Positions 9,121-32,145 of a DNA stretch of 32,351 nt are shown here, piece by piece. Position 1 is the stretch's first letter. Every line of letters starts with the position of its first letter. Below the pieces are notes generated by a model that saw only the letters and a list, made by a program, of their open reading frames with translations, made no database searches and was not told the DNA's origin. Location: positions 1-32,351 of the IMG/VR virus record IMGVR_UViG_3300025671_000276; one strand, given 5' to 3'. This DNA comes from a virus. Made by a program: the position numbers and the translations under genes.

Positions 9121-9272
9121 ATATAAAGAAGTTTAAAAGTGTGGCAGTCGCCATTGATACTTACAAACTATTGAAGAAGTTAGCTGCCATCGACGATCGG
9201 TCGGCTGGTATGCAGATAACCTACTTGGTAAAACAAGAAGCAAAAAAAAGAAAAATTAAGGAGGCTGCATGA
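9117..9272 (+). CDS. Ribbon-helix-helix-like DNA-binding protein, 51 aa
   Basis: The product starts MNIKKFKSVAVAIDTYKLL. A short beta strand (KSVAVAID) leads into helix 1 (TYKLLKKLAAIDDR), a turn and helix 2 (AGMQITYLVKQEAKK). This is the Arc/CopG ribbon-helix-helix layout, with the typical pattern of strand, 'Y/L..L..LA...' and 'I..LV'. Such proteins dimerise and bind short operators as repressors. It overlaps both neighbours by ATGA and directly precedes the ParB-like gene. The AGTTACC repeat array 2.1 kb downstream could be an operator, but nothing in the sequence links the two. Confidence 0.6.
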   Translation: MNIKKFKSVAVAIDTYKLLKKLAAIDDRSAGMQITYLVKQEAKKRKIKEAA

Positions 9273-10108
9273 CCTATAATAAAATTCATGATAAAATATA
9301 CGTAACAAATAATTACAATATGTTTTCTTTTAAAGGTGGAAATAGAGATATTTTACGAAATGAAAGACATATTCAGAACTTACAGCAAGAGTTAAAGAGA
9401 AAACAACTTTCTTCTATTCCTCTTTCTGTTGAGCATCAAGGTGGTAAATATTATATCAACGAAGGACAAAATAGATTTGAAGCTTTACGAAGAGAAAAAC
9501 TTCCTATTTATTATGCTATTGAAAGAAAAAAAATTAACATTGATGACATTCGTCGATTAAATAACACACAAAAGTCATGGAATCAAAAGGACTGGGTGGA
9601 TAGTTATATTCATTCGGAAAAGGAAAACTTTGGGCCCTTCAAGGCTGTTTCACAACCGTACCATATGTACAAACATTTTATGACAAAATATAAAATCACT
9701 TCTAATGTTGCTTTATATTTGTTGGCGGGTGAAAATAATAAATCAACCACAAAACGTTTTAGAGATGGTCAATTAAAAATACCTGATTGGAACAAGTCTT
9801 GTGAAAAAATTAATTTTTTACAATCTATGGAGATTTTTATTAGTAAAAATTGGAAGCGTTCTTCTTTTGTGACAGCTATAATGTCGGCGTATGATGATTA
9901 TCGTTTTCGAAAAAAACGATGGATGCGTAAGTTAGAATTAAATAGCAGAAAAATTGTTCTTGCTACTAATGCACTAGATTACATGGACATGATTAATGAG
10001 ATTTATAATTTCAAAGAAACACAAAAAGTGTATTTTGAATTAAAGAATGCCAAAAATATCAAATCTTCTTTACGAAGAAACGGTCACGACGCTTTTTGGA
10101 ATAATTAA
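9269..10108 (+). CDS. ParB/Srx-fold domain protein
   Basis: The N-terminal 100 residues of this 279-aa protein follow the ParB N-domain pattern: GNRDILRNERHIQNLQQEL, then LSSIPLSVEHQGGKYYINEG, QNRFEALRREKLPIYYAIER. The core is the G-x-x-R box, here EGQNRFEA where ParB usually has (D/E)GxHR. ParB domains bind CTP or act as nucleases or DNA binders. The rest is basic (RFRKKRWMRK) and helical with no recognised domain. An AAGGAGG site precedes the start. The gene follows the RHH gene by ATGA overlap, a regulator/ParB pairing seen in plasmids and phages, but no parA-like ATPase is present. Confidence 0.65.
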   Translation: MTYNKIHDKIYVTNNYNMFSFKGGNRDILRNERHIQNLQQELKRKQLSSIPLSVEHQGGKYYINEGQNRFEALRREKLPIYYAIERKKINIDDIRRLNNTQKSWNQKDWVDSYIHSEKENFGPFKAVSQPYHMYKHFMTKYKITSNVALYLLAGENNKSTTKRFRDGQLKIPDWNKSCEKINFLQSMEIFISKNWKRSSFVTAIMSAYDDYRFRKKRWMRKLELNSRKIVLATNALDYMDMINEIYNFKETQKVYFELKNAKNIKSSLRRNGHDAFWNN

Positions 10109-11163: not shown

Positions 11164-11320
11164 GTGCGATAGTTGCGAAAACTACCACATAAAATTCTTC
11201 GATCCAAAGCATGATAGGACATATACTCCATCAGAATGGGAGCAAATTGTTACTGAAGGTAAGGAAGCTTTGTATAAAGCATTGCAAGTTGTGCGTGAAG
11301 ACCCTAAGTTTTTTGCATAA
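11120..11320 (+). CDS. Hypothetical small protein with CxxC, 66 aa
   Basis: AAAGGA lies 9 nt before ATG 11120. The product has a short beta start (MYITLPDSPVRKIFKCDSC), a CxxC pair and a helical C-terminus (PSEWEQIVTEGKEALYKAL). One CxxC is not enough to call a zinc site. It is the last gene before the AGTTACC array, and it ends with a complete reading frame. No family recognised. Confidence 0.5.
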   Translation: MYITLPDSPVRKIFKCDSCENYHIKFFDPKHDRTYTPSEWEQIVTEGKEALYKALQVVREDPKFFA

Positions 11321-11382
11321 ACACCCCTTTCTATAGATGTTTTTACTCAGATAAAGCAACACTCTCTTCTACGCTAGAACAC

Positions 11383-11468
11383 AAGTTACCAAGTTACCAA
11401 GTTACAACCCTTATCAGTTACCAAATAAAGGTAACTTAGAGGTAACTTACACATTTATAGAAGTTACC
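11383..11468 (+). repeat. AGTTACC repeat array (7 copies, both orientations)
   Basis: Forward copies AAGTTACC are at 11383 and 11391, AAGTTACA at 11399, CAGTTACC at 11415 and AAGTTACC at 11461. Inverted copies GGTAACTT are at 11430 and 11441. The first three are exactly 8 bp apart and the fourth is in the same 8-bp register. The array lies in a gap between the early small genes and the small terminase, flanked by an AT-rich tract (TTTTTTATATTTACAA). It may be an operator array, a replication-origin iteron set or an RNA switch. Confidence 0.8.
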
Positions 11469-11474
11469 TTTTTT
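11440..11474 (+). terminator. Rho-independent terminator made from repeat copies 6 and 7
   Basis: AGGTAACTT (11440-11448) pairs perfectly with AAGTTACCT (11461-11469) across a 12-nt loop and runs into six or more T. This should end the early small-gene operon before the small terminase. Upstream repeat copies can pair with the same strands, giving possible alternative folds. Confidence 0.75.
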
Positions 11475-11559
11475 ATATTTACAAACATAACTCGCATTGC
11501 ATGAGATGGTGAAATATTGTATAGTTTCTGGTAAGAAACATCTATTGAACAGGTGCATT

Positions 11560-12087
11560 ATGGAAGAAGAAAATAAAGATATAGTAATACCACAGGCATT
11601 TTCAGATGACCTGTTTCACCCAAAGATAACTGGAAAACAACGTAAATTTATATTGTTGCTTGTCCATTCTGAAGGTTTAAAGACTGCCAGGCAGTGTGCT
11701 ATTGAAGCTGGGTTTGCAGTTGGTTCTGCAGTTGTGCGTGCTTCTGAGCTACAACACCCTGAGAAATATCCTTTGGTTGCAGGTGCTATTGAAGCTGAGA
11801 GAAGAGCTATTGCTGAAAGATACAAATGTACTCAGGAAAGATCGTTATCTACATTAGCTCGCATCAGAGACAAAGCGTCTGAGTCAGGGAACTGGAACGC
11901 TGCCGTAGCTGCGGAGACCAGGCGTGGTCAGATAGCTGGGTTGTATGTTGATAAGAAAGAAATTCTTACAGGTACGATTGATTCAATGTCAAGAGATGAG
12001 GTAGAGCAGAAGATTCAGGACTTGAAGAAGCAGTACAGTATTGAAACTTCGTTTGAAGAAATAAAAGAATTAGAAAATAAGTCTTGA
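11560..12087 (+). CDS. Terminase small subunit
   Basis: This 175-aa protein binds phage DNA and starts packaging with the large subunit. ATG 11560 (AGGTG upstream) is preferred; a TTG at 11497 would add 21 residues without a ribosome site. After a short acidic start comes HPKITGKQRKFILLLVHSEG, then TARQCAIEAGF, the helix-turn-helix layout of small terminases. A long helical region follows (oligomerisation) with a charged C-terminus. It lies 3 kb upstream of the large subunit, with the 12-15 kb island in between, whereas the two subunits are often adjacent. The call rests on fold pattern and position. Confidence 0.75.
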   Translation: MEEENKDIVIPQAFSDDLFHPKITGKQRKFILLLVHSEGLKTARQCAIEAGFAVGSAVVRASELQHPEKYPLVAGAIEAERRAIAERYKCTQERSLSTLARIRDKASESGNWNAAVAAETRRGQIAGLYVDKKEILTGTIDSMSRDEVEQKIQDLKKQYSIETSFEEIKELENKS

Positions 12088-12307: not shown

Positions 12308-12402
12308 CAAAAATCCTAATAACATTGTTGATTCTTGTTTCTTTGTATAATTTCAAGATGCTTCTTTTGTTATTTTTTGTTATTTATTTCTTTTTACTGT
12401 AG
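12304..12402 (+). CDS. Hydrophobic membrane peptide, 32 aa
   Basis: This is almost entirely hydrophobic: MTKILITLLILVSLYNF, then a second hydrophobic run to LL. One or two membrane passes are possible. The start overlaps the upstream stop (ATGA) and its TAG overlaps the next GTG, so it is embedded in a coupled cluster. The small size makes the call uncertain; a similar 29-aa peptide follows the gene at 13240. Confidence 0.4.
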   Translation: MTKILITLLILVSLYNFKMLLLLFFVIYFFLL

Positions 12403-12824
12403 TGAAACCAGAGAGCAAATTTTGGAAACAGGTAAAGGAAAATCTAACAGATATCCATTGGACTAGATTAGAAAACAGGATAGGACAAGGTATACCAGAC
12501 TGCTACGGGATCTCTGCTGGTATCTCGGTTTGGTTGGAACTTAAAGTAATTCGCAGTAACAAGATTGTTCTGTCGCCTTTTCAAAAATCGTGGAATTTTA
12601 GCCATAGTTTACAAGGCGGGAGAAACTTTATTATCGCAACGACCTTCCCTCAAAGCTTACTGTATATCTTTCCAGGAATCGTTGCTCCATCCATTGGCTC
12701 CATTGCCCATTGTCCTTCCCCCAATTGGCAGATAAATATGGTGCACGACCCGCATCCCTGGCAGCAGGTACAACGCATCATTCTCCATTCTCCATTGCCC
12801 AGCTCACAAGACCAACCACAATAG
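12402..12824 (+). CDS. VRR-NUC / PD-(D/E)XK nuclease with repeat-derived C-terminus
   Basis: GTG start at 12402, coupled to the preceding TAG; 140 aa. Residues 1-92 read as a VRR-NUC-type domain: PESKFWKQVKE, HWTRLENRIGQGIPDCYG (D33), WLELK (E46, K48) and LSPFQKSW (Q61), the catalytic set of a PD-(D/E)XK nuclease. Phage VRR-NUC proteins cut branched DNA. From about residue 93 the frame runs into CCATTNN repeats and hairpin DNA (12687-12800), so the last 48 residues (IVAPSIGSIAHCPSPNW...) look like non-protein sequence read by chance after repeat insertion or decay. Confidence 0.72.
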   Translation: MKPESKFWKQVKENLTDIHWTRLENRIGQGIPDCYGISAGISVWLELKVIRSNKIVLSPFQKSWNFSHSLQGGRNFIIATTFPQSLLYIFPGIVAPSIGSIAHCPSPNWQINMVHDPHPWQQVQRIILHSPLPSSQDQPQ

Positions 12825-30039: not shown

Positions 30040-30584
30040 AACTATTTCTTTTGTTAGCTTTTATAACAGTTGTTGCTGTTTCAACAGATGTTAGAAGCGC
30101 AGAGACAAACACGGTCAGTTCAACGGTGGTAACGGATAAATCGGTACCAACCGCAAGTGCACCAAGTGTTGTTGTAAACAATTCTGATATTTGTAAGGTA
30201 GCTACATCTGGTGCCATACAAACCAACATACTTGGTATCGCTACAGGCGTAGTTGTAGACGATGAGCTGTGTCAACTTTTGAAGCTTTCCCGCCAATTAT
30301 ATGCATCAGGCCTTAAAGTTGCCTCAATTTCATTACTTGCAACTGACCCAAGAGTTTTTGACAGTTTAGTAATGGCAGGAACCCCACCACCATACATGGG
30401 TGCGATTGGTTCTGAAGCTTTGGAAAAATGGAAATCAAATCCAGACATGATACCAGAAGGTAGTACGGTATTTAAAGATGATGTTTTAAAGATTAATGTA
30501 AATGAGGATGTGAGCGATGGCGAATTCAAAAAGTTTTTATTTTTGGCTATGGCTATGTATATCGGTCTCCCTATCCTTTTCTAG
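30033..30584 (+). CDS. Secreted protein with signal peptide, conserved phage type
   Basis: I prefer ATG 30033 (a start at 30027 would add two residues). The start MLKLFLLLAFITVVAVSTDV is a signal peptide, cleaved probably after RSA. The mature part has STVVTDKSVPTASAPSVVVN, a CKVATSGAIQTNILGIATG block and KVASISLLATDPRVFDS. I recall similar proteins in T4-like cyanophages and pelagiphages, where they are virion or exported proteins of unknown role. The end overlaps the next gene by 68 nt. Confidence 0.7.
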   Translation: MLKLFLLLAFITVVAVSTDVRSAETNTVSSTVVTDKSVPTASAPSVVVNNSDICKVATSGAIQTNILGIATGVVVDDELCQLLKLSRQLYASGLKVASISLLATDPRVFDSLVMAGTPPPYMGAIGSEALEKWKSNPDMIPEGSTVFKDDVLKINVNEDVSDGEFKKFLFLAMAMYIGLPILF

Positions 30585-32145
30585 TAAAGCTGTAGATTGT
30601 TCAACAGATACAGTTGGACTATGTACGCCGACTATTGAAGAGATAATAGATGAAACAATTACAGAAACTATTGAGTATGAAGCAGATGGATATACTGTAA
30701 CAACAACGACAGAAACAACGACAACAACCAATACAGTCACTAACGAAGATTCAGGAGATATTCTTGATAGTGATAATGGATATGTAGCAACTTCGAAGGA
30801 CGGTTCGATGGATTTTGACTGGGGTGGCCAAGGGCCCGCTAGCATGCCAACAGGATCTACATGTGGACAATTAGGAGAAGATAAGTGTGCACAAATTACA
30901 GGATCAGGTGATAGCACAAGCGCCATGGGTGTAGAAGGTATGGGAACAACTTTTATACAAACAGTTGATATATCTTCTCTTGATATAGAAAATGGAGGAA
31001 GAACTAATTACACAATCAAAGTAGATAAGCAAGATGCACAAGATCGTATCTATATGCATATTACAGGTAGAAATGGAAGCACCAATGTATTTAGTGGTAC
31101 AGACATTTTATCAGAATCTGGTGTAGCCAGTGGGTATCAAGAATATGAAAATGGTTTTGATTTTGCAGGTACGATAACAACGTTGGTAATCGAAATTGGT
31201 GGGCGTGATATCAATATGGCAATCGGCCCGCTCTTTGATGATATTACCATAAACGTACTTTACAATGTAATATCTACAATCGTGCAAGAATCTATTACAA
31301 GTGTAGAAATGTGGGTTGCATATGGAGGTAGCACAGAAACAGAGGTCATAGATATTGTAGAAAATATTATTGATCATAATGATTTTGTAGAACAGCCAAA
31401 CGGAGAAATAGAAATAGAGCCAATACAAGAACCAGATACAGAAGTTTCCTATGAAATGGTTGAAATTGAAATGGAGATGGAGATGCCTGTTATGGAAATA
31501 GAAATACCAGAAATGGAGATGGAAATGCCAGAAATGGAGATGGCAAGCGTTGAGACAGAGATAGAAATGGAAATGGAGATGGAAATGCCTGAGCCAGAAG
31601 TTGAAGTAGAAACACAACCTGAGCCAGAACCTGAGCCAGAAGTAAATGAACCAGAACCTGAGCCAGAACCAGAAGTTTCTGAGCCAGAACAAGAGGAGGT
31701 ACAAGATGAACCTACTGAAGAAGATACTAAGGAAACTGAACCTACTACGAAAGAGGAGCCTGAGCAGGAAGAAAGCTCACCAGAGGTTGCTAAAGATGAA
31801 GATAGCGAAGAAGATATGGAAGAAACAGAGGATAAGGATCAAGACGAGGTAAAAAAAGAAGAGAGTAAAAAAGAAGTCGCAGCTAAAAAAATATTAAAGA
31901 AGATGGGTGATAAGGGTAGATATGACTCTGCAAATCAGTTAAAAACATTAATTGTGATGCAAGTATTAGGTAACTCTAAATCATTCTTTGAAGGTCAACA
32001 AAGTTTAAATGATATACAAGGATTCTTTACAGATAATGCAATACCTGATGCTGAACTAACAACTAATAATATAGCACAATATTTTCTATTTGGAGGGAGT
32101 GACGTGCTTATGAATGAAATGATAATGCAACAATGGCAGAATTAG
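30517..32145 (+). CDS. Large exported protein with acidic Met-Glu and Pro-Glu repeats
   Basis: This 542-aa protein has a signal peptide (MANSKSFYFWLWLCISVSLS, cleavage probably near SSKA). It then has a Thr-rich region, a beta-sandwich-like domain with GTTFIQTVDISSLDIENGG and DRIYMHITGRNGSTNVFSG, then a long acidic repeat region (EMEMEMP, PEPEPEPE, about residues 317-455) and a short lysine-rich linker with a C-terminal helical domain (KKILKKMGDKGRYDSANQL). The acidic region is probably disordered. Function unknown; its long overlap with the previous signal-peptide gene suggests a paired membrane or periplasm role. Confidence 0.6.
   Translation: MANSKSFYFWLWLCISVSLSFSSKAVDCSTDTVGLCTPTIEEIIDETITETIEYEADGYTVTTTTETTTTTNTVTNEDSGDILDSDNGYVATSKDGSMDFDWGGQGPASMPTGSTCGQLGEDKCAQITGSGDSTSAMGVEGMGTTFIQTVDISSLDIENGGRTNYTIKVDKQDAQDRIYMHITGRNGSTNVFSGTDILSESGVASGYQEYENGFDFAGTITTLVIEIGGRDINMAIGPLFDDITINVLYNVISTIVQESITSVEMWVAYGGSTETEVIDIVENIIDHNDFVEQPNGEIEIEPIQEPDTEVSYEMVEIEMEMEMPVMEIEIPEMEMEMPEMEMASVETEIEMEMEMEMPEPEVEVETQPEPEPEPEVNEPEPEPEPEVSEPEQEEVQDEPTEEDTKETEPTTKEEPEQEESSPEVAKDEDSEEDMEETEDKDQDEVKKEESKKEVAAKKILKKMGDKGRYDSANQLKTLIVMQVLGNSKSFFEGQQSLNDIQGFFTDNAIPDAELTTNNIAQYFLFGGSDVLMNEMIMQQWQN

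Follow-up and report, generated by a model that had tools for sequence, protein, structure and literature searches.

A conserved repeat array upstream of terS in HTVC023P-type pelagiphages is a candidate small-terminase-binding packaging site

Packaging sites with repeats and the array of the window

The repeat-containing pac and cosB sites described so far are located at terS or a short way upstream of it (PMC4737164, PMC4669245). In SPP1 and SF6, the direct repeats for packaging initiation span the promoter and start of terS and vary between related phages, with SF6 lacking boxA, while the DNA-binding domain of SF6 TerS shows little specificity for its repeats in vitro (PMC4737164). The cosB sites of the lambda family (R3-R2-R1; lambda, 21 and N15) present several TerS sites, one of them inverted, upstream of terS, and from phage to phage the sites vary in sequence together with the recognition helix of TerS (PMC4669245). 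HK97 has a short TerS-specific site near the terminase, which is a single 15-bp sequence read by a substructure to which two neighbouring protomers contribute (PMC11331095). DNA recognition by the small terminase was described in 2022 as still unanswered (PMC9611059), and the HK97 TerS complex has been solved since (PMC11331095).

We analysed a 32,351-bp uncultivated phage record (the window) from an ocean pelagiphage of the HTVC023P type, whose large terminase (TerL) is 61–66% identical to those of Pelagibacter phages HTVC023P and HTVC027P and of phages 023Pt_psg01 and DSL-LC04. An array of short repeats at 11383-11474 sits between the replication genes (primase, helicase and PolA, all upstream) and terS, with a 66-aa ORF ending at 11320 on its 5' side and the terS start codon (ATG at 11560) 91 bp downstream. 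Deposited phages gave no DNA-level match to the array region (search with 9-15 kb). Elsewhere in the window, dense GAAATGGA-type repeats at 31453-31700 fall within a 542-aa ORF (30517-32145) and give Met/Glu/Pro-rich repeats in its protein.

11383..11390, plus strand: unit F1, AAGTTACC; slot kept at -47/-48 from R1
11391..11398, plus strand: unit F2, AAGTTACC, 8 bp past F1; slot kept at -39/-40 from R1
11399..11406, plus strand: unit F3, AAGTTACA, 8 bp past F2; slot kept at -31/-32 from R1
11416..11422, plus strand: AGTTACC, fourth forward copy, in register, without conservation in relatives
11430..11437, minus strand: unit R1, inverted copy (sequence and slot comparison)
11441..11448, minus strand: unit R2, inverted copy, 11 bp past R1 (sequence and slot comparison)
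11461..11468, plus strand: unit F5, 20 bp past R2 (sequence and slot comparison)
11469..11474, plus strand: T-run TTTTTT after the hairpin; in relatives it accompanies ACC units but not ACA units

The initial annotation described seven copies of AGTTACC/GGTAACT in 86 bp. All seven are present, but only six are exact AGTTACC, the remaining one being AGTTACA. Forward copies start at 11384, 11392, 11400 (AGTTACA, one mismatch), 11416 and 11462, the first four sharing an 8-bp register as had been proposed, and the two inverted ones at 11430 and 11441. The window holds 13 AGTTACC in total, where 3.5 would be expected and none of 100 shuffles gets as far as 13, and six of these 13 fall inside the 86 bp; the largest cluster of an identical 7-mer within 120 bp holds six copies here versus three (four once) in 20 Markov-1 shuffles. 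The array itself is confirmed as real. Its fourth forward copy is probably incidental, relatives showing GCTACC, GATACC or TTTCCTA at the 11416 slot.

The R2 side (11440-11448) and F5 side (11461-11469) form a hairpin with nine of nine positions complementary around a 12-nt loop, and folding of the array region as RNA gives z = -3.65; an Rfam search gave no match. The perfect 9-bp terminator of the initial annotation is present as a stem and T-run, but it is weak as a terminator (-10.3 kcal/mol, AT-rich stem, 12-nt loop). A terminator scan with a loop limit of 8 nt did not report this 12-nt-loop hairpin.

Compared with the packaging repeats of SPP1 and SF6, the array consists of short repeats in about six copies, at fixed spacing and covarying with the recognition helix. 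It differs from the lambda-family cosB in that contigs cross it (73 of 80 loci) with no cohesive-end site identified, and in its more numerous and shorter units. The recognition mode seen by cryoEM for HK97 TerS on DNA also differs from the one proposed here, in which HTH helices would read an array, and to that extent counts against it (PMC11331095).

Fixed layout and changing units in relatives

Our sample comprised 80 viral contigs with a related terS and then about 40 more; because lineages were sampled through terS, arrays away from that gene would be missed. The layout F1-8-F2-8-F3-31/32-R1-10/11-R2-20-F5 recurs in some 80 distinct relatives and, taking R1 as 0, places forward slots at -48/-47, -40/-39 and -32/-31, the inverted slot at +10/+11 and the last forward slot at +30 to +32. 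These positions are constant in the window lineage while the unit sequence varies. The unit differs between relatives and is mostly uniform inside each array, with AAGTTACC (the window), AAGTAACC, AAGTTACA and AAGTAACA switching jointly across copies. The right block of L012-L014 carries AAGTACCC, and ATGTAATTT units occur in a single contig (L015), the only one known in a terS context among the exact matches to this class D unit, which include two further hits.

Some arrays (L029/L056 type) have lost R2 and carry a forward copy in its stead; a forward unit at +22 replaces the lost R2 in some relatives and the 9-12-9 inverted pair therefore persists. This hairpin, formed by R2:F5 or, elsewhere among the relatives, by R1:F', is maintained by compensatory changes in several unit classes, and in L022/L026 the left block and R2 have changed jointly. 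The central base of the unit (T or A, as in GTTAC/GTAAC) flips array-wide at least 11 times on a tree of TerS C-terminal DNA, with 70–83% of copy pairs in agreement and no matching change in TerS. TerS was rejected as the cause of the central-base difference, class A and class B having an identical helix. Since the central base flips without a TerS change, TerS specificity does not cover all of the concerted change, to which hairpin complementarity or template switching may contribute.

Arrays are found upstream of terS in three lineages, each with different units. Relatives of HTVC023P have CTAGGAAA units in a similar layout (8 / ~43 / 11 / 20-21 bp) and the same concerted pattern with direct copies; in isolate HTVC023P itself (host HTCC1062, a laboratory strain) the array is at about 11680 of the record. 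One of the relatives, L147, has CTAAGAA-type copies throughout, the inverted one included, a unit change that comes without an obvious change in the TerS helix; no more CTAAGAA contigs related to it were noticed, the search returning the same two contigs as close relatives. In L154 and L156, TGGGAAA predominates. In the relatives of 023Pt_psg01, the arrays immediately preceding terS are shorter and built of ACGTGA, ACAGGA or ACGTAA units; terS there has a different neighbourhood and runs on the strand opposite to that of TerL. The array-to-terS distance differs among lineages, and terS is the gene common to all three settings. The early/late boundary, at which the initial annotation placed the array, is not the common factor, because the third-lineage array precedes an opposite-strand terS. 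In the HTVC027P lineage, the stretch directly before terS contains no array of this kind.

Other repeats were seen in these lineages. Downstream of terS in HTVC023P, a ~33-bp repeat, CAAATCTTGAGAATACATACCGAAAATTTTTTG, occurs three times in tandem (L084:4240-4345; about 12470-12570 of the record). Five TGGCACA/TGTGCCA copies, spaced by 9, 51, 23 and 9 bp, lie in the gap after the peptide deformylase gene in 023Pt_psg01 (L083:4589-4687), as a possible binding array, and CCGCAAG/GCTTGCGGCTTGAAGCTT repeats lie between gp33 and gp34 in HTVC027P (L082:5870-6030), two genes reported to have their own expression cluster (PMC12753301).

The array of the window is itself enclosed by an inverted repeat and followed by a promoter-like sequence:

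11330..11342, plus strand: left arm of the flanking inverted repeat, TCTATAGATGTTT
11536..11548, plus strand: right arm of the flanking inverted repeat, AAACATCTATTGA
11489..11525, plus strand: conserved AACTCGCA, then promoter-like TTGCAT-17-TATAGT upstream of terS (by eye)

The inverted repeat (ATAGATGTTT / AAACATCTAT), with arms about 200 bp apart, is kept in the window lineage, and the HTVC023P lineage has flanking repeats of other sequence that score above shuffles. Inverted repeat arms about 200 bp apart were also noted at L085:2481-2501 and 2681-2702, as was a long inverted repeat upstream of the terS operon of DSL-LC04. A consensus scan did not flag the TTGCAT-17-TATAGT sequence upstream of terS.

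Association of the unit with TerS

11560..12087, plus strand: small terminase subunit TerS, 175 aa, candidate array binder (phrog_51, E=3e-9; HTH in the AlphaFold2 model)
11728..11754, plus strand: codons of the predicted TerS recognition helix, residues 57-65 (AlphaFold2 model)
11731-11733, plus strand: codon of TerS residue 58, which tracks the last base of the unit (association across loci)
12402..12824, plus strand: nuclease-like protein g12402 with a GxPD...ELK motif, near TerS in five of the five lineages looked at

The TerS of the window matches phrog_51 and has predicted helices at 43-50 and 57-65, as an HTH small terminase would, in an AlphaFold2 model with a mean pLDDT of 77 that exceeds 90 in the HTH part. 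Helix 57-65 is the second HTH helix of this model, which places residue 58 in the recognition helix. A sequence search of TerS against the PDB gave no match, and the best match in a fold search, the NV1 small terminase, was not significant (E=2.7).

Within the window lineage, residue 58 is Val in all 42 loci with C-ending (ACC) units and Arg, Lys or Thr in all 72 loci with A-ending (ACA) units. Three TerS columns (25, 58 and 84) split C- from A-ending units without exception among 72 distinct TerS/label pairs. No perfectly associated column was found in the products of seven small genes between 8821 and the array (g8821, the RHH protein, g10108, g10436, g10587, g10945 and g11120), nor in g12134 downstream of terS; g11120 lies about as near the array as does the TerS helix, and identical RHH, g11120 and g12134 proteins are found with both unit classes. 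The unit end switches at least three times on the tree of TerS C-terminal DNA. L012-L014 are nested among TerS proteins with a Lys helix and ACA units in this tree, yet have a Val helix and C-type units; the exception is L015, with a Val helix but ATGTAATTT units. Five changes of helix residue class were counted, including rows with an uncertain unit label such as L225. Independent switches number three in the window lineage (two on well-supported branches) and two in the 023Pt lineage, and significance is unreachable for a sign test of unit end and helix; with so few switches, linkage is a possible source of the association.

In the 023Pt lineage, ACGTGA and ACAGGA arrays pair with SSRT and ATKA, respectively, at the start of the helix. 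Four of the nine discriminating TerS columns fall in a 12-residue recognition-helix window (hypergeometric P=0.0014, uncorrected for relatedness), and a three-class test was not significant (P=0.13).

The g12402 protein resembles the PD-(D/E)XK/VRR-NUC nucleases by eye, has no Pfam match and carries a helicase label in PHROG. Homologues lie near TerS at L083:5915-6262, L082:4728-4997, L346:2528-2776 and L085:3919-4221. Because eight of its columns are perfectly associated with unit class in the window lineage, downstream linkage or co-adaptation of the nuclease is possible. The protein is also a possible packaging partner.

A candidate packaging-initiation site and its alternatives

We consider it probable that the array is a multi-copy TerS-binding site for packaging initiation, pac-like and possibly cosB-like. 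Small-terminase subunits would bind the GTNAC-type units via their HTH recognition helices. The steps of the right block approximate one and two helical turns, and the fixed spacing would let several subunits of a TerS ring engage together; the engaged oligomer would then recruit TerL for the first cut, and the unit sequence would serve as an address evolving jointly with the recognition helix. The position of the array upstream of terS in all three lineages is that of known pac sites. Most contigs span the array and near-complete ones do not end there, which weakly favours headful (pac) over cohesive-end packaging. Clustering of contig ends, as a cos site might produce, was not obvious by eye across 80 loci. 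The initial annotation also allowed for a DNA-level array bound by a phage protein, and the comparisons made here support that proposal, with TerS as the putative binder; the annotation had not recognised the next gene downstream as the small terminase.

The two binders it had put forward fare less well. Operator arrays of the MetJ/omega/ParG-type RHH proteins consist of tandem boxes of seven to eight bp in both orientations, and the window array resembles them in box size and in combining direct with inverted copies. The phage RHH protein (9117), in contrast, does not follow the unit: its beta-strand is indifferent to unit class, the identical protein occurs with both, and its best column supplies no more than 0.45 of the required information. 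Class-A relatives L007, L008 and L016 lack the ParB-like gene at its place. This gene (9269-10108, phrog_12305) is present or absent at that position among close relatives, a cargo-like slot.

Control of the terS promoter (AACTCGCA...TTGCAT-17-TATAGT) by TerS or another phage factor, with no packaging role, would place an operator at the point where expression passes from replication to packaging genes. The array ends ~30 bp upstream of the promoter-like sequence, and it contains palindromic pairs of units at a distance of about two turns, as an operator might. We nevertheless regard this as unlikely, given that the array persists in L225 despite a short extra segment before terS, that its distance from terS varies by lineage and that the genome's other promoters do not carry the motif: there is one array per genome, and in ten related contigs outside matches to the unit are about as frequent as those to the reversed control pattern, which argues against a general operator. 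Short tandem and inverted units beside replication genes, with an adjoining AT-rich stretch in some classes, would also suit the iterons of a phage origin bound by some initiator, another proposal of the initial annotation. Yet no turn in GC skew coincides with the array in the window, HTVC023P or two near-complete contigs, class A has no AT-rich stretch beside it, no initiator gene was recognised there, and the element keeps its place by terS even where that gene is inverted, its unit tracking TerS. An origin is thus quite unlikely.

Homogenisation by template switching or gene conversion could make the copies alike and leave the TerS association to linkage. It would fit a central base that changes in concert without TerS and the joint change of left block and R2 in L022/L026, but not slots that are constant though sequence varies, the lack of a perfect column in g11120 despite its proximity or the concentration of ACGTGA/ACAGGA TerS differences in the helix; as the main explanation it is very unlikely. 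Least probable of all is an RNA attenuator or intrinsic terminator that ends the early transcript, in which F copies compete for R copies. The compensated 9-12-9 hairpin, the T-run of ACC classes and an alternative fold at -19 kcal/mol speak for it. However, the stem is kept among relatives while loci with A-ending units have no T-run, and termination or attenuation is accordingly not the conserved function; moreover, L029/L056-type arrays swap R2 for a forward copy and the HTVC023P lineage reaches the same concerted pattern with direct copies. The initial annotation had named as its refuting case relatives that keep the terminator and not the other copies, and the opposite was seen: the array is kept and the terminator is not.

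Returning to the packaging site, a more specific version, which we put forward tentatively, is that of a fixed-geometry, multi-unit pac in which the unit would serve as a rapidly evolving address that the TerS recognition helix matches. A term search of a genome survey of the phage group (PMC9599517) gave no mention of such a site, and a literature search combining the relevant terms returned nothing. Specificity at pac-type sites is hard to show in vitro, and the relatives supply more than 100 natural TerS/site pairs together with a prediction of one residue and one base (Val versus Arg/Lys/Thr at 58, C versus A at the unit end). If correct, this would amount to a natural recognition code for a small terminase on a pac-type site, by which each of several co-infecting relatives in this highly abundant group of ocean phages would restrict packaging to its own DNA.
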